Assembly: GCA_951813065.1 (NCBI GenBank)
Contig: CATOTH010000002.1
Location: 124,001-188,000, forward strand
Source of the DNA: an uncultured Bryobacterales bacterium
GTDB lineage: Bacteria; Acidobacteriota; Terriglobia; Bryobacterales; UBA6623
DNA length: 64,000 bases
Direction: 5' to 3'
Shown in pieces: positions 42,272 through 52,665 of the stretch. Positions within the stretch are counted from its first letter, which is position 1, and every line of letters starts with the position of its first letter. The notes below the pieces were generated by a model. The model saw only the letters and a list, made by a program, of their open reading frames with translations, was not told the origin of the DNA and did no database searches. Position numbers and translations under genes: made by a program.

Positions 42272-42433
42272 CGAGCATTCGGCCGTTTCGGGGAATACCT
42301 TGTGCCTGCTGCATGTCCGTAGAAGGACCGAGCCTGTTGGACTCTGGCGCTGGTGCGCGGCGCCGTACATAGCGAGCGTTGCCGCGTGCTAGCATCAAAT
42401 GTGGGAGTGCCATTCGGCATTCACGGCTGGTGC

Positions 42434-42511
42434 GTCCCCATCGTCTAGCCCGGCCTAGGACACCGCCCTTTCACGGCGACAACGCGGGTTCGAATCCCGC
42501 TGGGGACGCCA
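42434..42511 (+). tRNA. tRNA-Glu (anticodon TTC), island integration site
   Basis: The acceptor GTCCCCA pairs with TGGGGAC at 42501-42507, followed by G and an encoded CCA. The loop CTTTCAC holds anticodon TTC at 42470-42472. Pair 27-43 appears as C-A, a mild irregularity. The last 13 bases (42499-42511) are repeated at 54857-54869, which marks the tRNA as the attachment site of the island. Confidence 0.95.
42499..42511 (+). repeat. attL: 3' end of tRNA-Glu
   Basis: GCTGGGGACGCCA, the last 13 bases of the tRNA including CCA, is identical to 54857-54869. This is the likely integrase crossover repeat, left copy. Confidence 0.75.
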
Positions 42512-42727
42512 CTTGTTTTGGATTAAGTACCGGAATTTCAGTATGTCGGAGGAGATAGATTAGCAATCTACACCTCAAGGCGTCCCACAACGATGCTCGA
42601 ACGCCAGTCCTCTCAGGATTCCGGCACGTCGGGCAACGATTCCAGCGCACGGCTGTTTCGGGGACAACTCCGCTCCGAAACATCGGTGTGCCAATCTCGC
42701 AGCACGGGAACCGGACGCCCCAAAGCA

Positions 42728-43352
42728 CTAGTAGAGATGCAACACAAGCGCGTCTTGCCGCGCGGCCTCCAGCTCTTCCATGGACACGGGAATCGGCGAG
42801 AATTCCAATTTGTACATCGGCATCTGCCAGCGATTGACCAGCCAGCCGGCCTGCCCCTCACTCGCCTCCTTGCCCGGCAGCCCTTCTCGCCGCAGCCGGA
42901 CAACTAGTTGCTGTCGAAGTTCAACAGCCTTCTCCCATCTCACCCGTTCAGTAAAGTCCACCTGCCCCCAGGCCTCGGATGTCGCACGCAGTCCGCCCGG
43001 TGTCAAGACTCCGATGGCGTCCAGCGCCTCGGCGAGTTGCAAAGACGCCGGTGGAAGGCCCTCCCTCTTGTAGAGATACGAGTTCGGCATGATGTACTCC
43101 CCCGCGTAGCCATCGAGGTGGTGAGTCTTGCGCTCCAGTTCGACGTATTCCCGTCACTGCGCGACGCTCACCGCCTCCCACAACGTCGCCGCCGCGTAGA
43201 ACAGTCGAGGCAGGTGCATGTAGGACCAGCCCACGATCTTCCCGAGACGGCAATCGACAAGACGGGCCGGGCTCCGCCCCGCATCCACCAGTACGAGGGC
43301 CGTTGCCGCCTCCTCCTCAGCGGGGATCCGAAGCGCTGCCGCCTCACTCTCA
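42728..43352 (-). pseudogene. Interrupted hypothetical gene (in-frame TGA)
   Basis: The minus-strand frame encodes a protein-like sequence in two parts. About 65 residues (through RLFYAAATLWEAVSVAQ) are followed by a TGA at 43154-43156. The same frame then continues (REYVELERKTHHLDGY) into a 120-residue part ending VLHLY. Composition is consistent across the stop, which suggests one gene broken by a point mutation. The 5' end meets the stop of the YbjQ-like gene and no clear start is seen. The function is not recognised. Confidence 0.5.
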
Positions 43353-43790
43353 TTGAGCCAACGTGCCGTACAGAATCATCCTTGGATTGCCGTTGCGGGT
43401 TATGTACGGGCTGCTCCTCAGCCCCACGACCGCGTTCGCGCCCGCCTCCACGGCCGCCCCCCGGAGGGTCTTCATCTCGCGGATCAATCCGTCGGCGAGG
43501 GTCCTGCCCGCGAGAGCCCCGGAAGTCGGCAGCACAATAGCCGGGAACTGCGTCTCCGGCCCGGACAGGGCGGTGCATTTCCTGCCAGGAACCGTCTCGG
43601 TGGTGACTACCTGCACGTCGCTCTCCGACTCGAGCGCGGGAGTGATCAGCCCGCTCTTGGTGTTGTAGTTGCCCTTGAGGTCGGGTCTGCTGCACCGCCC
43701 CGCCGAAGCGCCCGTACTAGCAGCCGCCGTCCCCCCGTGGATGCCTTCGTCGACAAGCCCAGACTGCTCGAACCGGTCCAAATAGTCCAC
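43350..43790 (-). CDS. YbjQ-like putative heavy-metal-binding domain protein
   Basis: This frame of 146 residues opens at GTG 43790. The C-terminal half resembles the YbjQ/UPF0145 family: VVTTETVPGRKC, then REMKTLRGAAVEAGANAVVGL and a closing ILYGTL. The N-terminal part (DYLDRFEQSGLVDEGIHGG) may belong to a frameshifted upstream gene rather than to this domain. YbjQ proteins form pentamers of uncertain role. It is placed in decayed island DNA, so expression is uncertain. Confidence 0.5.
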   Translation of the reverse strand: MDYLDRFEQSGLVDEGIHGGTAAASTGASAGRCSRPDLKGNYNTKSGLITPALESESDVQVVTTETVPGRKCTALSGPETQFPAIVLPTSGALAGRTLADGLIREMKTLRGAAVEAGANAVVGLRSSPYITRNGNPRMILYGTLAQ

Positions 43791-43792
43791 AA

Positions 43793-44217
43793 TCTGTCAC
43801 CCGCAACAGAGTCCCCGATGGCGCGAGTGACCATGGCGAACACGCAAATGGAGCGGTAGACATAGTCCCAGAAGTACCGCCTGTGCCCGACTCCTGTTCG
43901 GTTCCGAGCATGCCGCCCATGTGGAAATGCGGCGGGTCAGCGCGATACAACTCCAACAGACGCGGCGCCGCGCCGTGGACATAGTCTGACTGACGATTGC
44001 CGATCGTCCGAAATTGCTCAATCGTCCGGCTCAGGTCGCTGGCGGCCCCCGAAGTGTCCGAAATGACCCGACCGATGTGGGTTTGGAACTTCCGCCTTGG
44101 AGCCCTGTCCCGCTTCTGGGTCGACGCGAGCGGGGCGTGGTGGTCGAACTCGTCCTGCCAGAAGTCCTCCAGGAACCGGGTGCGTTCCAGGTCCGACGCG
44201 AACACCCAAGAAGCCAC
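43793..44217 (-). pseudogene. Frameshifted hypothetical gene
   Basis: Starting near GTG 44217, the frame reads a plausible soluble protein (DLERTRFLEDFWQDEFDHHAPL, then SDYVHGAAPRLLELYRADPP) for about 110 residues. It then turns low-complexity near 43900. A neighbouring frame continues sensibly (RRYFWDYVYRSICVFAMVTRAIGDS). This indicates a single-base shift around 43885-43895. The tail recalls HEPN/DUF5677-like proteins, but weakly. The 5' end overlaps a formylglycine-enzyme-like scrap. Confidence 0.4.
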
Positions 44218-44270
44218 TCGGAAACATTGCCAGTCAGGTCATGGATGCCTACGACGTTCGTCGGGCTCCG
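44214..44270 (-). pseudogene. Formylglycine-generating-enzyme-like (SUMF1) fragment
   Basis: The minus-strand frame reads SPTNVVGIHDLTGNVSEW, close to the FGE signature (..N..GL.DM.GNV.EW). It is closed upstream by TAG at 44271-44273 and loses similarity after the Trp. At 19 codons it is only a relic, if real. Confidence 0.3.
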
Positions 44271-44481
44271 CTATTCGGCTCGTGATAAGCTAGGCACCGC
44301 TAGGAGATATGGCCTAGGCGTGCTTCTTGGTTCCGAAATCGAGGCGCCATTGTGACAATGACCGGAACGCGCGTGGTCCGCATGTCACAGCTAAGTGGCA
44401 TTCGTAATCCCTAGCCGACAGAATGACGACGCTTGGCCATACCGTGGCGAGTATCGACCAGGATCGTACTAGGGTGGAACA
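44218..44481. other. Region upstream of the hybrid kinase gene
   Basis: Apart from the FGE-like scrap, nothing is recognised in these 264 bases. It must hold the promoter of the kinase gene, because the neighbours to the left run the other way. Confidence 0.3.
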
Positions 44482-46833
44482 TTGAAGAGTCCCGGCGAGT
44501 TCGAAACGGAAGTCGAAGAACAGCGAAACCGCATCTCCAAGTTGAGCTCGGCGTGTCTCCGCATCGGCGCGAACCTCGACGTCAGCACGCTCCTGCACGA
44601 GGTTGTAGACGCCGCCCGCGACTTGACCGGTGCCAGTGTCGGCGGCATCACAACGGTGGATGAGTTGGGCCAGCCCGAGGAGTTCGTCACCGCAGGCTAC
44701 ACGCCGGACGAGCACCAGCGGATGGCAGGCTGGCCGGATGGGCCGCGTCTCCTCAAGAAACTCCGGAGCCTACCGGGGCCGATCAGGCTCCCCGACCTGA
44801 CTGCCTATGTCCAGTCGCTGGGATTCTCGCTAGAGCTGACGCGACCAAAGACCTTTCAGAGTACCCCGATGCGCCATAGGGGGGTGCATATCGGCAACAT
44901 CCTCCTTGGTGACAAGGGAGGCGGGCGGGAGTTCACGGACGAGGATGAAGAGCTGCTCCTGCTGTTCGCTTCCCAGGCCGCGACCGCTGTCGCCAACGCC
45001 CGCAGGCACCGGGCCGAGGAGCGAGCCCGCGCCGACCTGGAGGCATTGGTCAACACCTCGCCCGTGGGGGTAGTGGTCTTTGACGCTGGGACTGGCAGGG
45101 CGGCTTTGCTCAACGAAGAGTCGCGCCGGATCGTTGACTGTCTTCGTATGCCGGGACGCTCTGCGGAAGACTTGCTCAATCTGATCACCGTGAAGCGGGC
45201 CAACGGACAAGAGCATGCCCTCACGGAAATCCCCCTGGCGGAAGTGCTGCGAGCCGCCACGCCGGTGCGGGCCGAAGAGATCGTCATCCGAGTCCCGGAC
45301 GGAAGGAGTGTCACCACGCTCGTCAACGCCACCCCGATTCGGCCGGACGACGGCGAGGTGACCTCGGTTGTCGTAACCCTTCAGGACCTGACCCCGAGGG
45401 ACGGGCTAGAACGCTTGCGGGCCGAATTCCTGGGCATGGTCAGCCACGAGCTGCGCGTCCCGCTGACCTCCATCAAGGGCTCGGCGGAAATCGTGCTGGG
45501 GGCCCCGACAACCCTCGATCCGGTCGAAATGCTGCAGTTCTTCCGGATCGTCGAACAACAGGCCAATCACATGGCTGGTCTGGTCAGCGACCTGGTGGAC
45601 GCAGGGCGGATCGAGACGGGCACGCTTTCGGTTTTCCTGGAGCCGACCGACATCGCGAGCCTGGTGGAACAGGCTCGGAATACGTATCTGAGCGGTGGCG
45701 GCCGAAACCCCGTGGAGATCAATCTCCCGCTGGACCTGCCATGGGTGCGGGCGGACAGACGGCGGATCGTCCAGATCCTGATCAATCTCATGTCCAACGC
45801 TTCCAAGCACTCCCCGGAAACATCCCCGATTCAGGTCTCAGCGAAGCAGGATGGCGTTTTCGTGGAGATCTCGGTCACCGACAAGGGAAAGGACCTGCCG
45901 CCGGACCGCCTGCCCCAGCTGTTCAGGAAGGATCAGGGCACGGATGGCGACGAAGAAACCCGTGGAGCCCCAAGGGCAGGCTTGAGCCTGGCGATCTGCA
46001 AGGGGCTCGTGGAAGCCCACGGGGGGCGTGTCTGGGCCGAGAGCGACGGCGTGGGACAGGGGACGCGGATCAGCTTCACAGTTCAGGTCGCTGAAGCAAC
46101 CGCGACGCGATCTGTCCTTCCGTCAAACCTCTCGCAGCGATCTTTCCGCGAACCCAACCCGATTCTCGTGGTCGACGACGATCCGGAGACGCTCAGATAC
46201 GTCCGCAACGCACTCACGAGCGCGGGCTTCCCCGTGCTCGTGACGGGCAACCCTAAGGAAGTTCCCGGCCTCATCGAGACGAGAAGGCCCCAGCTCGTCC
46301 TGCTGGGCTTGAACCTGCCCGGAATTGAAGGGATCGAACTGATGGGTCGGATTCCCGCGCTGGCCGATCTGCCCGTGATATTTCTCTCTGGCTACGCCAG
46401 GGACGAGACTATCGCACAGGCGCTGAAGAATGGCGCCGCCGATTACATCGTCAAGCCGTTTTCGCCGACGGAACTCGTGGCGAGAATCGAGGCAGCATTG
46501 CGGACAAGGCAAAGGCAGCCGGAACGCTTTCGCTTGGGAGACCTCTGCATCAACTATGCGGAGCGCAGGGTTTCCATCTCCGGCCGCCCCGTGGAATTGA
46601 CCGCAACCGAATTCGATCTGCTCCGGGAACTCTCACTCAAGGCCGGCCAAGTGCTGACGTACCAATCACTCTTGCAGACAGTGTGGGGGCAGAAGGAATC
46701 CGCCGACGCCGGAGCGGTGCGGTCGTTCGTGAAGAAGCTACGCCGCAAACTGGACGACAGGGCGGCCAAGCCCGCCTACATTTTCACGGTACATCGAGTG
46801 GGCTACCGCATGGCGAAGCCCGGGCGGGACTGA
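44482..46833 (+). CDS. Hybrid histidine kinase: GAF-PAS-HisKA-HATPase-pseudoreceiver-winged helix
   Basis: This 783-residue protein has no membrane helices or signal and so is cytoplasmic. A GAF domain lies at about 15-175 and a PAS domain at about 183-302. HisKA follows with His322 (MVSHELRVPLTS), then HATPase with N-box NLMSNASKHSP (435-445). The first Gly box is degraded to DKGKD (467-471), and the second lies near 497-515. The receiver (560-675) keeps Asp565-567, Ser636 and Lys658 but has Gly609 where the phospho-Asp should be. A PhoB/OmpR-type winged helix (685-776) ends the protein. It may both sense a signal and bind DNA. The start is TTG 44482 with AGGGTGG upstream. Confidence 0.88.
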   Translation: MKSPGEFETEVEEQRNRISKLSSACLRIGANLDVSTLLHEVVDAARDLTGASVGGITTVDELGQPEEFVTAGYTPDEHQRMAGWPDGPRLLKKLRSLPGPIRLPDLTAYVQSLGFSLELTRPKTFQSTPMRHRGVHIGNILLGDKGGGREFTDEDEELLLLFASQAATAVANARRHRAEERARADLEALVNTSPVGVVVFDAGTGRAALLNEESRRIVDCLRMPGRSAEDLLNLITVKRANGQEHALTEIPLAEVLRAATPVRAEEIVIRVPDGRSVTTLVNATPIRPDDGEVTSVVVTLQDLTPRDGLERLRAEFLGMVSHELRVPLTSIKGSAEIVLGAPTTLDPVEMLQFFRIVEQQANHMAGLVSDLVDAGRIETGTLSVFLEPTDIASLVEQARNTYLSGGGRNPVEINLPLDLPWVRADRRRIVQILINLMSNASKHSPETSPIQVSAKQDGVFVEISVTDKGKDLPPDRLPQLFRKDQGTDGDEETRGAPRAGLSLAICKGLVEAHGGRVWAESDGVGQGTRISFTVQVAEATATRSVLPSNLSQRSFREPNPILVVDDDPETLRYVRNALTSAGFPVLVTGNPKEVPGLIETRRPQLVLLGLNLPGIEGIELMGRIPALADLPVIFLSGYARDETIAQALKNGAADYIVKPFSPTELVARIEAALRTRQRQPERFRLGDLCINYAERRVSISGRPVELTATEFDLLRELSLKAGQVLTYQSLLQTVWGQKESADAGAVRSFVKKLRRKLDDRAAKPAYIFTVHRVGYRMAKPGRD

Positions 46834-47356
46834 AAGTTCCTCCTGACAGAGGCGGCTCGATGTGAGGTGCGAGATTCAGGATGCGCTGCAGGTTTCCCAG
46901 CGCGTGCGGGCCACTGCCTCCTGGGTACGCAAGCCAACCCTGACATCCTGCACCGATGCCTGGCGAGGCTCCAGGCAGGAGCACGATGCACTCGCTGCGT
47001 GCGGATGAACTCACCAAGAACTGGCGGAGGCTCCACGAACCTCGGGACGGCTATAGTCGTCATGTCGGAGTCAACCAGATCCATACCGGCAATGCGCCCG
47101 TCATAGAGAGGAGGTCTCCGAGCAACCGGCTGTTCGGGTCCCGCAAAGATCGTCTGCAACTCGCTTGTAGGCCACATAACTGTCAGACCGCCTCGATGGC
47201 ATTCGCCACATGGCGCGCGGACATCGATGCAATCGCGGTTAGCCTGAGTTTGTCATTCTGGGATTTTAGGTGCGGATAAGTCATTACGCACCAGTCACAT
47301 AACGATTCTCGCAGTTCCAGTATGTCACTACAGGATTTCTTCGGTAGGCGCCGATT
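46834..47356. other. Island intergenic, no feature recognised
   Basis: These 523 bases lie between the kinase gene and the transposase relic. Short frames on both strands lack ribosome-binding sites or family resemblance. Confidence 0.4.
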
Positions 47357-47710
47357 TCAGTCGAGCGGAGTGCGCGTCCGGACGCCGGCCGTCCGGGCCA
47401 GTGCGGCGGCCTCCGGGTCCGGACGGGTGTCCTGGCGGCACTCGATCCGCTCCCCGCCGGCGGTCACCAGCGTGGTCGTCAGCCGCATTTAGTTCGACAG
47501 TTTGCGGCGGATCGTCTCTCAGCTGTCGTGCATACCGTGCGCATCCAGACGCCGCCGCAGCAGACCCACGGCGTGGTAGGCCAGCACGGCGATGAACAGG
47601 TGCGCCGGGATGCCGTCGTGCTTCGCGTGCCAGATCGGTCGCAATCCGACCCCCTCGGCCATCATGGTGCCGCCCTTTAGGGAGTTGCCGTACCTACCGC
47701 ATCCCTACCC
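47357..47710 (-). pseudogene. IS4/IS1634-type transposase C-terminal remnant
   Basis: The minus-strand frame reads GGTMMAEGVGLRPIWHAKHDG, then AHLFIAVLAYHAVGLLRRRL and TIRRKLSN, MRLTTTLVTAGGERIECRQ. This is the C-terminal pattern of IS4/IS1634-like transposases. The frame is broken by TGA where Trp is expected (after HDS) and by TAA before MRLTT. A further TAG lies upstream near 47705. No terminal inverted repeats were found. It is a dead relic. Confidence 0.6.
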
Positions 47711-48204
47711 GTCCACTAATCCGTAGCTACCTCAGGAACTGCCGGGGAACGAGGTGCTGTGGCAGGCGTACCGGCAACTGCAAACGATGGTGCGCTACCG
47801 GCAGTCCCTGCGGGGGCCGCCGTAGGGGACCGTCAGGGGGAGCGCAGAACACTCTCCCGGAGGCACTGTCGTGGGTCGGGAATCCTCTCGGCCGGGCCGC
47901 AGGCGGGCTCCGTCGGGAAATCCCTGGGCGCAACCCGAAGCCTGCCCGCTGGTCGCCGCTGATCCGTCTTGCCAACCCTCGCGCAACGGCGGAATGGCAC
48001 CCCTTCGCAACGCCCTGACCGGAATGGCAACTCTGGCCGTACGGCCCAACCTGGTTCCAGCCGATGCGCGCGTCTGTCGTGCTGCGCTGGTGCGCCCTCC
48101 TCTCGCCCCCCAGTCTCCGGGAGGCCCATCCGGCACCATCAAGACCGAATGTGAGCCGCAGCCCCCATTGGCTCGAAACCTCCAGCATCAACTATGTCCG
48201 GTCG
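47711..48204. other. Island intergenic with a short gene scrap
   Basis: On the plus strand a 33-codon piece (about 47728-47826) reads QELPGNEVLWQAYRQLQTMV, bounded by TAG at both ends. It looks like the tail of a lost gene. The rest is GC-rich without a supported gene. Confidence 0.3.
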
Positions 48205-48363
48205 CTAGCTTGAACTGTCCGCGTTTCCTACAATCGTGATATGGCTTCCGTCGACTCGGCACGCGTCGTCGAGTGCGGCCATGGCTCGCGACCATTCCGT
48301 GTTGCCTAGCGCCGCATCGTGCAATGCGGTGAGGGCCTGGTCGAATTGAGCCTGGCGGCTCAT
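48205..48363 (-). pseudogene. Truncated LuxR-family regulator N-terminus
   Basis: The ATG at 48363 opens 52 codons reading SRQAQFDQALTALHDAALGN and so on to ITIVGNADSS, then TAG at 48205-48207. The pattern resembles the N-terminal sensory domain of some LuxR-type regulators. The DNA-binding domain is missing and nothing in the following 200 bases continues it. Confidence 0.35.
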
Positions 48364-48488
48364 CGACGTGATCCTACTCTTGAACGGGGTTGGGTGGCGT
48401 TTAGGTCATGTAGCATTTCATGTGCGTTTGGGACCATATTGGGACCAAGCCTGCGAATCAGTCATCCCTTGCGGGAAGCTGCTCCAGT

Positions 48489-48761
48489 TCAACGGAAATC
48501 TCCACGGATTCGGAAATCGCCGTTCACCAATGTCTTTCGACACTCGAGTGCCGCGATCCGCTGGTTCAGCATCGTGTAGAGCGGGCGAGCGCTCTCGGAG
48601 AACTCGTTGGCGTTGCCGTTGGGCAGCCGGGCGTTGAGGGCTCCGGAATCGCTCAGGCCCCGCGTGGCGTCCGCGATTCCCTTGGCGTGGCTGTAGCCGC
48701 TGTCGACCTCCTCCAAGGCCGCGAAGCCATCCGCTTCCGCCTCGATCATCTCTTTCGTCAC
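48489..48761 (-). CDS. Small hypothetical protein of the island
   Basis: This 90-residue soluble protein starts with GTG 48761, supported by AAGGAGAG four bases upstream. It is rich in Ala, Glu and Asn and no family was recognised. It follows the small membrane protein gene by 12 bp in the same direction. The good ribosome-binding sites of both genes argue that this pair is real and functional, unlike much of the surrounding DNA. Confidence 0.55.
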   Translation of the reverse strand: MTKEMIEAEADGFAALEEVDSGYSHAKGIADATRGLSDSGALNARLPNGNANEFSESARPLYTMLNQRIAALECRKTLVNGDFRIRGDFR

Positions 48762-48773
48762 TGCTCTCTCCTT

Positions 48774-49007
48774 TCACCAATCCCGCGAGATCATCGCCCA
48801 CAGGAAAGCCAATGCCGCGGCCAGCCGTGCGAGCCCGCCCAGGCACCACGCCAGCCAGTCCCGTAGCGGGATGGTCGAGCCCCATATCCAAGTCTGGCGC
48901 GGGACCCTCAGGACGCCGAACAAGGCGTTGAACAGCGGGACTACAAGGAAATAGATCGCAAGGAATGCGCCGCAGGACACCACGATGAATATCGCGTCAC
49001 TGACCAT
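48774..49007 (-). CDS. Small membrane protein of the island
   Basis: This 77-residue protein has two hydrophobic helices (about residues 5-32 and 52-72). They are joined by a basic loop with several Trp (PRQTWIWGSTIPLRDW). The ATG at 49007 follows AGGGAGAG by three bases. No family is recognised. It is first in a two-gene unit with the 90-residue protein. Small membrane plus soluble protein pairs on islands can be toxin-immunity or phage-related, but nothing here proves it. Confidence 0.55.
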   Translation of the reverse strand: MVSDAIFIVVSCGAFLAIYFLVVPLFNALFGVLRVPRQTWIWGSTIPLRDWLAWCLGGLARLAAALAFLWAMISRDW

Positions 49008-49350
49008 GCACTCTCCCTGTGAGCACCCGGCCCGTGTTCACAAGATCACCTAGTGCTATAGGAAACCTACGGGCCGGACGCTCGGGTGGCACCCGCATTG
49101 CAAACGGAGCTACTGAAGTCCACTGAGCGGGAGCCACGAACACAATACCACAACAATGGACATACTATGGACACTTTTGTGGTCGGCTGAGGATGGATCG
49201 TTACCGGAGAGCCCGAGCCGGGCCTCCTGCCGAATACACGAGCCGTATTCGGGGCAGGGTGTGGCTTCCCAGCCTGGCGACAAACAGGCAGGACAGCTCT
49301 CTCCTAACGACGATCCAGGGCCCGGGACCAGCGGGCCGGGAAAGTGCAAC

Positions 49351-49655
49351 ATGGGCGACAACTTCAAATTCTACCTGATCGGGACGCTGATCGCGTTCCC
49401 GGCCATCTCGACGCTGTGCGAGCGGGACGATCAAGTGGCGCGGGTCGCCGCCAGTGGTCGGGCAGTGGCTCCGGCGATTGGAAGACGCTGGGTGTGCTGT
49501 ACACGAAGAACGGCACGGTCTATCGGTTCTTCCATGATTGCGGCTACGTCGCCGACAAGCGGCTGGCCAGCATTGGCAAGAACGACTGCATGCACGCGAT
49601 CACCGTCAGCTGGGAGTGGAGTTGGGAGATACTGATGGAAACCGACAAGGCGTAG
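49351..49655 (+). pseudogene. Frameshifted small secreted/membrane protein
   Basis: The ATG at 49351 opens MGDNFKFYLIGTLIAFPAIST, a likely signal or membrane helix, and continues to about 49450. The following sensible frame (SGSGDWKTLGVLYTKNGTVY through METDKA, stop 49653-49655) is shifted by one base, around 49450-49455. The two parts probably belonged to one protein of about 100 residues. The second part has a two-Cys core (HDCGY, NDCMH). Function unknown. Confidence 0.4.
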
Positions 49656-50262
49656 AGCTAAAGCATTGTAGAGTGATGCCGATCGACGAAGGCGAGGCTT
49701 TCACTCTGGCAATCTCAGCTCATCTACGAGTCCTGGGTCAGACCCCAGGGCAATGCAGGTTTCACGGAGGAGCCCAAGGCGCATCGGCCAGCGTAATCGA
49801 GCAAGGTCTTGCGAGCGCCCTGCATCAGTGGCGTCAGGGCGAGGTGAACCCGCTGGTGCTGAGGAAGACTGAAGAGAGATCCTCGAACACGTCCTCCGGA
49901 CCGCGGACAGCGTTCGAGGCTTTCACGAGGGACATTCTGAGCGGGCATGAAGTCTCATATCCCCTCACGATTTGAACGTAGTGCGATCCGACGTGAATGG
50001 GGACCCTGAGCAAGGACAACCCGCTCCACGGGAAGTCCGAGCAGGTCGTGGAAAAGGTATTCAAACCACGGCGGCCGAAGCCACCTCGACGGAAGCCAAG
50101 AGCGCAGAAATGAGCTCGAGGCTAGTCAGCTACATCGCTCCCTTCCTGATTCCACCAAATATGAGTGCTATGTCGAAAATATGACCTACAACGGAGTTTC
50201 CGGTTCAGATATGATTGTTCTGCCGAAAAGACGCGCTGGTGGCCGTGTGCGCAAGTCGATGA
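49656..50262. other. Island intergenic, no feature recognised
   Basis: About 600 bases hold only short overlapping frames without supporting signals. Composition is less GC-rich to the right. Confidence 0.35.
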
Positions 50263-50376
50263 GCCTACTCGATCGCCCAAGTGGTGAACGACAAACCGCA
50301 CGGCCAGTGGATTTGCCGTTTTGCTGACGGGTCCAGCAAGAAGATCAGATATGAGAATGGCAAGAGACTCCCATAA
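50263..50376 (+). pseudogene. MORN-repeat protein fragment
   Basis: A 37-codon frame after an in-frame TGA reads VVNDKPHGQWICRFADGSSK then IRYENGKRLP and a TAA stop. The pattern NGK.HG.W...dG......Y.NG matches a MORN-type repeat unit. It is likely the tail of a deleted MORN protein. Confidence 0.4.
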
Positions 50377-50649
50377 TCACCTGCGCTCGATGCGCCACGC
50401 CAAGAACCCCAACTCGCTGGCCAAGTTGTGGCCCGAGACGGAACAGGATCGCCTCGGCTGGCGTGCGGCGGTTCGCTCGCGTACGGCGCCTTACGCACCC
50501 GCTTCGGGGACTTCCGGGCTGAGGTTCCGGTCTGGCTGTAGGGCGACGAGTGGAGCGGTCCACAGGTCGGCTGTATGGGTCCGGGCGATTCTGGAGCACA
50601 TTCAATTGAAGCAGCTGCCGTGGTCTGAGAGCCATCTCCAGTAGCATTC

Positions 50650-52665
50650 GTGGAAGTCGTGCAACGGAAGAATGGGCTTACCGTGAACGGTCACTTCTCC
50701 CTGGTCTTGATTCCCGTATTCCTACTGAGCGCAGCCGCTCCGGCTCTCACTGCTCAGGAAATTGGCAGACCGTTGTCTTGTGCGGATCGCTCCATCGTCG
50801 CCAGCGCGGTGCGCACACCGGCAGACGTTCGGACGTTCGTTCAATGCGCCTACGAGTTTGTTCGGGAAGTGGGGTTTGAGGAAGCCCGAAGGGCCTTTCA
50901 TGAGGACGAGCGCTGGCGAAGCGGCCCGATCTATGTGGTTGTCGACGAAGTGACTCCCATGAGCGATCAGGCTCTAACGTTTGTATACCCACCTGATCCA
51001 TCGCGGGAAGGGGCCCCGTGGGGTCTCCTGATCGATGGCTTCGGCAATGACTGGTTCCGGGAACAGCATCGTATCGTGAGCAACTTCGGCGAGGGCTGGA
51101 TGTACTATTCCTTCACCAACCCGGAGACGGGTCGGGATGAGCCGAAGTTTGCCTACCTCAAGGGTCTCGAATGGGACGGGACCCCGGCTGCGATCGCCGC
51201 AGGGGTCTATCCTCGCGACATCCCGGGCGCATGCGGGAGTGAAGAGGTCAACGCCACGGGACTTGAGACCGAGCCTTCCCCCGAGAGGCTGCGGGAGTTT
51301 GTCCGTTGCGCCGCCATGGAACTGGAATCGCAGGGGTACTTCGCCACCGTCACGCTGTCAACCAATCCGCGCTGGAGGAGTAACTCGATCTACGTGTTCG
51401 GCCTGGATACCTTTGGCAACATGCTGTTCAGCGGCGACCCTGACAGCCTGGGGAGTGGCCCCGGGAAATCCGAGTTGGACGCGAATCTCAACCCAACCCT
51501 CGAAGGCCAGGACGTGGTTAGCGTTGTAAATGCGTTTGGGGAAGGCTTTCTCTACTACTCGACGCGCAATCCCGCGACTGGAGTGCTGCAGCGAAAGGTG
51601 ACTTTTGTCAAAAGAGTCGCGTCCCGTGGGTTGCCGATCCTGGTCGGGTCCGGATTCTACCCGGACTGCCCGCTGGCCGGGTGCGGCGGTTCAGGGCCCA
51701 CGGGCGTCTCGACCGCCGCGGCCTGCAAGGCAGCCCGCGAAACGCTGGCTGGCATCCCAGCCATGCAGGTCGACTACGGTTTCTATACCGATTTCAATCC
51801 GGTGAGTTACTCCGTCGCACAGGCTCAACCGGAGGGCTACGAGCCGGACCTGGTCGCAGCCGTCGAGACGTTTTCACGGGGGAAGCTGAGTTTCAATGCA
51901 CTGGAGATCGGCAATCCCTTCTCGGGGATCTGGCTCAAAGCGGCACAAGGGCCTTACCACATGGTGGGTGGCGGCATTACCGCATTGCCCGAACGCACCC
52001 TCGATGCGGACGGGCGGCAAGTGATCCGCTTCGGCGTGGGCCATATCAGCTTCCGCCAGTCGCTACTGGTGCGCTCCGAGAGTGTCATCAGCCGACACGA
52101 CGATCTGACCTTGCAGCACCGGGTGGGCGTTCTGCGAGGCACCACTGGCGAGAAGCGGTTGTTGGAGTTGACGGGCATCATCGACGCCGCAGGCTTCATC
52201 GGCCACGGGACTCGGGTGCATCTGGCCGAGAGCGGCAGCTTGATTGCTGGGGATCCGGGCAGCGAGTCAGCGTTGCGCATAGCCGCCGGCACGGGATCCG
52301 TTGCCATCGCCACGCGTGTCCGTCTGGTTCCAGCCGCGAATGACCGACCCGAGGTGCTCTACTTCAACGGTGAAAGCGAGCTAATCAGCGCGTTGCTGGA
52401 GGGCGAGGTTGACGCCGTGGCGCGAGGGGAACTCGGCAATAGGGTAACCGCTCGCGACACGCCGGGCCTGCGCGTAACCGCTATCGACATGGAAGACCAC
52501 GAACGGGGTGCCTTCAGCTATCCCGACACGCCTGCTGGCAATGCCCTGCGGGTGGTCATGAACGCAGCGATCGCTTGCCTGACGGCAAACGGAACTGTTG
52601 AGTTCTCGCAATGGTTCGACAGCAGCGGCACAGTCTTCGCAAAGCGCGCCGAGGAGTTGCGCTGA
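50650..52665 (+). CDS. Secreted protein with two Cache domains and an SBP_bac_3 domain
   Basis: This 671-residue protein has a signal peptide (VLIPVFLLSAAAPALTAQ). Two successive Cache_2-like domains (about 55-195 and 215-350) each have the W....IYV...D..G, G.GW/FLYYS..NP.TG and K..YVK/F blocks. A type 2 periplasmic binding domain like SBP_bac_3 follows (about 355-670: MQVDYGFYTDFNPVSY, a YEPDLVAAV block, LLEGEVDAVA). It has no membrane helix or kinase, so it is a free periplasmic or secreted ligand binder. The start may be GTG 50683 rather than GTG 50650. It shares the island with the hybrid kinase but is 3.8 kb away. Confidence 0.8.
   Translation: MEVVQRKNGLTVNGHFSLVLIPVFLLSAAAPALTAQEIGRPLSCADRSIVASAVRTPADVRTFVQCAYEFVREVGFEEARRAFHEDERWRSGPIYVVVDEVTPMSDQALTFVYPPDPSREGAPWGLLIDGFGNDWFREQHRIVSNFGEGWMYYSFTNPETGRDEPKFAYLKGLEWDGTPAAIAAGVYPRDIPGACGSEEVNATGLETEPSPERLREFVRCAAMELESQGYFATVTLSTNPRWRSNSIYVFGLDTFGNMLFSGDPDSLGSGPGKSELDANLNPTLEGQDVVSVVNAFGEGFLYYSTRNPATGVLQRKVTFVKRVASRGLPILVGSGFYPDCPLAGCGGSGPTGVSTAAACKAARETLAGIPAMQVDYGFYTDFNPVSYSVAQAQPEGYEPDLVAAVETFSRGKLSFNALEIGNPFSGIWLKAAQGPYHMVGGGITALPERTLDADGRQVIRFGVGHISFRQSLLVRSESVISRHDDLTLQHRVGVLRGTTGEKRLLELTGIIDAAGFIGHGTRVHLAESGSLIAGDPGSESALRIAAGTGSVAIATRVRLVPAANDRPEVLYFNGESELISALLEGEVDAVARGELGNRVTARDTPGLRVTAIDMEDHERGAFSYPDTPAGNALRVVMNAAIACLTANGTVEFSQWFDSSGTVFAKRAEELR

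Follow-up and report, generated by a model that had tools for sequence, protein, structure and literature searches.

What becomes of a regulator that carries histidine kinase, receiver and DNA-binding domain in a single chain when the receiver has glycine at the site of the phospho-accepting aspartate? The question is raised by a gene in the window, the 64,000-nucleotide stretch of DNA from an uncultured Bryobacterales bacterium analysed here, for which a sequence-only reading had proposed either a one-protein regulator working without a His-Asp relay or a damaged gene. The best explanation of the data presented below is descent from a fused sensor kinase/response regulator that was phospho-competent, with the relay lost in the window lineage alone. 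We give a probability of about one half to the fuller proposal that this private loss, within a phospho-competent family, left behind a phosphorylation-independent DNA-binding protein.

Domain organization of the fused regulator

The gene and its DNA-binding domain lie as follows:

44482-46833, + strand: fused regulator ORF, 783 amino acids, TTG start, GAF-PAS-HisKA-HATPase_c-REC-Trans_reg_C
46582-46812, + strand: winged-helix DNA-binding domain (Pfam Trans_reg_C, residues 701-777); the recognition helix AVRSFVKKLRRKL agrees with the family

The 783 codons contain no stop, a GGTGGA-like ribosome-binding stretch stands immediately 5' of the TTG, and the first residue coincides with the alignment start of several homologues. 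Pfam places GAF at residues 32-170, PAS at 185-302, HisKA at 313-380, HATPase at 425-536, Response_reg at 561-670 and Trans_reg_C at 701-777, in agreement with the coordinates and domain order read earlier from the ORF. Kinase, receiver and DNA-binding domain thus share one chain, as in HTCS-like fusions; the protein is not a Bacteroides HTCS proper, a type defined by a periplasmic sensor, membrane spans and an AraC-type output, as Pfam finds GAF/PAS input, a Trans_reg_C output and no AraC domain. A sequence search of solved structures brought the receiver and winged helix closest to MtrA, PrrA and KdpE, and the kinase part closest to a chain that we take to be the Thermotoga-type HK853.

Catalytic residues of the kinase and receiver

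Alignment with homologues and with these solved structures gave the following assignments:

45445-45447, + strand: His322 (CAC), phospho-accepting, kept (homologue alignment)
45880-45894, + strand: G1 box DKGKD (residues 467-471), Gly471 replaced by Asp (GAC, 45892-45894); family DxGxG, opposite DNGIG of HK853; Gly in 110/110 homologues
45979-45990, + strand: G2 box GLSL (residues 500-503), Gly502 replaced by Ser (AGC, 45985-45987); family GLGL, opposite GLGL of HK853; Gly in 110/110 homologues
46174-46179, + strand: Asp565-Asp566, receiver metal-binding acids, kept (homologue alignment)
46306-46308, + strand: Gly609 (GGC) at the phospho-Asp position, aligned with the phospho-Asp of MtrA, PrrA and KdpE; Asp in 110/110 homologues and 127/127 of a wider set
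46387-46389, + strand: Ser636, switch Ser/Thr, kept (homologue alignment)
46444-46455, + strand: Tyr655 (the K-3 aromatic) to Lys658, kept (homologue alignment)

The receiver is matched by Response_reg with an E value of 5e-25, yet carries Gly609 at the Asp position. In the kinase, the H and N boxes are intact while Gly471 and Gly502 are gone, which is not the residue set of a competent histidine kinase. The sequence-only reading had correctly identified His322, the glycine at the receiver Asp site, the retained pocket acids with Ser636 and Lys658, and the degraded first ATP box; it missed the lesion in the second box and thus slightly understated the losses. With changes in both ATP glycine boxes and at the phospho-Asp site, loss of the His-Asp relay itself has good support.

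The homologue set comprised 118 non-identical rows at no less than 45% identity, 110 of them with the relevant columns; its members, which come from the same genus, family and phylum as well as from further phyla, are 46-63% identical to the window protein and mostly full-length. Asp609, Gly471 and Gly502 are each invariant in all 110, and a wider set of 136 rows likewise contains no substitutions (Asp609 in 127/127, Gly471 in 126/126, Gly502 in 125 with one gap). The window protein is the sole member to depart at any of these positions, and it departs at all three. Over 13 catalytic positions, 94 of the 98 other full-length members have no lesion and four have one, against three in the window protein. 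Since the family residue is kept 110 times out of 110 at each site, the triple change lies far from chance variation. Relay loss, as the earlier proposal had it, is supported; fixation of Gly609 across a clade was refuted, as Asp occupies the site in every homologue with the column and the glycine is a private mutation, an outcome that the earlier reading had itself listed as refuting.

Two broader groupings were rejected on the same columns: a clade of Asp-less receivers, all homologues retaining Asp, and a degenerate kinase as a family trait, Gly471 and Gly502 being invariant in the remaining members. Because the lesion is private, the protein does not represent a new family. A search of 20 genomes of the phylum with a degenerate DNA pattern of the Gly-type motif returned no matches, a result that is uninformative. 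Among the closer homologues, L039 (the same gene as L009), one of the four members with a single catalytic lesion, has an independent change, Asp566 to Gly, at the second receiver metal-binding acid.

A privately held set of changes in one draft genome might reflect assembly or sequencing errors, but a single sequencing error is insufficient to explain three separate catalytic changes. Each is an in-frame substitution at its own site, independent of the others, and no frameshift is present; the contig exceeds 1 Mb in an assembly of 11 contigs, and we consider error very improbable. A partial relay, with residual kinase activity sending phosphate from His322 to the receiver of another protein, or with the kinase serving as a phosphatase, could account for the retention of His322, the N-box Asn435, Asp467, Gly469 and Gly500. 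Against it, the invariant Gly is missing from each G box and the protein's own receiver is unable to accept phosphate; the window genome has no second family copy, its next matches being ordinary regulators that do not exceed about 35% identity, and the neighbouring ORFs that were examined include no two-component partner. We regard this arrangement as unlikely.

Constraint on the gene and the case for decay

Near-invariant columns are violated at 3/13 catalytic positions versus 6/109 others (Fisher p 0.055; Poisson 0.017-0.036). The enrichment is borderline, a hint more than strong evidence, and in part post hoc, these changes being what singled the protein out for study. The window protein has the most such violations in the family (family mean 1.5 at other columns); they concentrate in HATPase and REC, with HisKA and GAF also affected. 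This load speaks for early pseudogenisation, a strong rival to a relay-loss regulator, by which constraint lapsed recently, the first visible damage includes catalytic residues and the ORF is still stop-free. Turnover in the family points the same way: L036 carries three in-frame stops and L114 one, further matches including L132 and L142 are also stop-bearing, so that copies are lost now and then, other copies show single catalytic lesions, and G008, a close genome of the same genus, is without any copy. The pattern of damage fits such decay less well. Uniform decay giving 3/13 catalytic violations predicts about 25/109 at the other columns, where 6 were seen, and decay that deep would probably have made stops. 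The winged helix is undamaged, with no violation in its 13 columns of at least 97% conservation and the recognition helix retained. We hold early pseudogenisation to be possible, at somewhat below even odds.

The window branch also appears to have been mostly under purifying selection. A purpose-written two-ratio codon model gave an omega of 0.093 on this branch versus 0.134 in the background, a figure that covers the whole branch rather than recent time since synonymous sites are near saturation. A fully neutral window branch was worse by 151 log units, and uniform long-term neutrality was rejected by this model. By domain, the ratio of omega to background was highest in HATPase (0.86), the other domains lying between 0.61 and 0.72. 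With one genome available and the closest homologues about 60-63% identical, the change could be of very recent date, and an omega averaged over the branch is a poor guide to its final stretch. As far as sequence can speak, the relay has gone from a gene that is otherwise maintained. Relay loss on a constrained gene explains the data better than uniform decay does, but the same data do not discriminate between function and early decay.

A proposed model for output without phosphotransfer

In PhoB/OmpR regulators the phosphorylated receiver dimerizes and the winged helix then binds direct repeats. In the relatives of the window protein, GAF/PAS input would set autophosphorylation of His322, with the phosphate passing to Asp609, the receivers dimerizing and the winged helices settling on direct repeats. 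In the window protein, both ATP use and phosphate acceptance are expected to fail. The sensor domains, dimerization domain, receiver switch residues and winged helix are retained, and HisKA is expected to keep the chains dimeric already, so that the winged helices may bind without phosphate. A conformational signal from GAF/PAS could then pass through the HisKA dimer to the winged helix; alternatively, DNA binding would be constitutive and output set by the amount of protein. The protein is most likely still made and still DNA-binding, and we infer a continued regulatory role.

Further points count against relay loss with retained DNA binding: His322, Asp565/566 and Lys658 are kept although they would then have no catalytic role, and no operator above chance lies upstream of the window gene. 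A more specific version, which we advance tentatively, is a recently evolved single-chain transcription regulator whose kinase and receiver were disarmed together, GAF/PAS now acting on the winged helix purely through conformational change; it would be seen here soon after its departure from a phospho-competent and probably autoregulated family.

The family, its candidate operator and the surroundings of the gene

Together the homologues make up a multi-copy family of orphan fused regulators (loci L009-L072 and L091-L162), with up to 10 matches per genome and six in a complete Dehalococcoidia chromosome. Members occur in MAGs titled Acidobacteria, Gemmatimonadetes, Latescibacterota, Spirochaetaceae and Bacteroidota, and in others titled Alpha-, Gamma- and Deltaproteobacteria and Dehalococcoidia. 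Several MAG isolate codes (RHO, COS, IRC, APA) appear to match sponge species listed in PMC8163846. About 40 genomes of a sister family (f3) yielded no full-length member at E 1e-60, and no viral relatives of the fused regulator were found. No neighbour gene is common to the whole family; neighbours are shared just within groups of close relatives, or a second family copy is adjacent.

Upstream regions of 250 bases from 62 non-redundant family genes were searched for operators. Direct repeats of 8 bases at 11-bp spacing numbered 15, versus 5.3 in dinucleotide-model shuffles (maximum 11 of 100). Pairs of GTGA in gene orientation occurred at spacing 11 in nine regions (0.35 expected), at 21 in seven and at 22 in four (0.3 expected each); every other spacing from 6 to 29 gave 0-1, as did opposite-orientation pairs at spacings 11, 21 and 22. 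Examples of the direct repeat lie upstream of L092, L052, L026 and L165. The GTGA repeats fit a candidate OmpR-type autoregulatory operator. Because spacings and core were picked from the same upstream regions, sites from a genome scan are more independent evidence: the triple GTGA pattern gave seven sites in eight genomes, two of them about 140-160 bases before family genes, with one scan site (G110:C96) also in the discovery set. No large regulon was seen in this eight-genome scan, and the sole triple-GTGA site in the window's genome sits within a longer open frame.

Upstream of the window gene the corresponding region is:

44232-44481, + strand: upstream region with a weak operator candidate, GTGATAAG at -200 and GAGATATG 22 bp on, not above chance

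Nothing resembling the family GTGA operator rose above chance in this region. Most relatives are also without a perfect GTGA site, so the missing window site does not decide between reuse and decay. The flanks at 42272-44481 and 46834-50649 have no long credible ORFs, and the small ORFs tested there matched no clear Pfam family; these flanks are possibly remnants or non-coding DNA. Further on, the ORF at 50650-52665 combines Cache domains with a family-3 solute-binding domain (Pfam) and looks like an extracellular sensor-like protein with no obvious output domain.

Comparison with known systems

If relay loss in a working regulator is the right account, kinase and receiver chemistry were lost in one lineage whose same-architecture, phospho-competent relatives survive, a compact before-and-after pair; if this is merely early decay, the lesion has little significance. 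The family, multi-copy, present in several phyla and with a candidate operator, may prove more useful than the lesion. Its fused regulators, at 46-63% identity, have the same domain order as the window protein, but keep the phospho-Asp, Gly471 and Gly502.

Like the window protein, the Bacteroides HTCS proteins join a sensor and a kinase to a receiver and a DNA-binding domain in a single chain, and there tethering is a recognized risk, offset by an inhibitory REC-DBD contact (PMC11253607). The window protein differs in its GAF-PAS input, its PhoB-type winged helix and the loss of its relay residues. ShkA and CikA also join a kinase to an Asp-less receiver in one chain (PMC12632262); in these the pseudo-receiver restrains an active kinase, whereas the window protein pairs a degenerate kinase with a DNA-binding output.

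Receivers without the Asp are common. The residue is absent from about 2% of REC-OmpR proteins, glycine makes up 11% of its replacements, and such receivers often retain pocket residues, chiefly the first acid and Lys (PMC4395418). Pseudo-receivers have many separate origins, and their switching has been called a mystery (PMC12632262). OmpR-type members such as ChxR (PMC3960148) and RitR (PMC4395418) act without phosphorylation. ChxR, RitR and HP1043 (PMC4395418, PMC12632262) share with the window protein a receiver fold joined to an OmpR/PhoB winged helix, a replaced phospho-Asp, and the retained first acid, Lys and Tyr/Ser coupling residues. Unlike them, the window receiver is fused to its own degenerate kinase, keeps both acids and is private to one genome. 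The window protein belongs with the Asp-less receivers, with the twist that its fused kinase is degenerate too.
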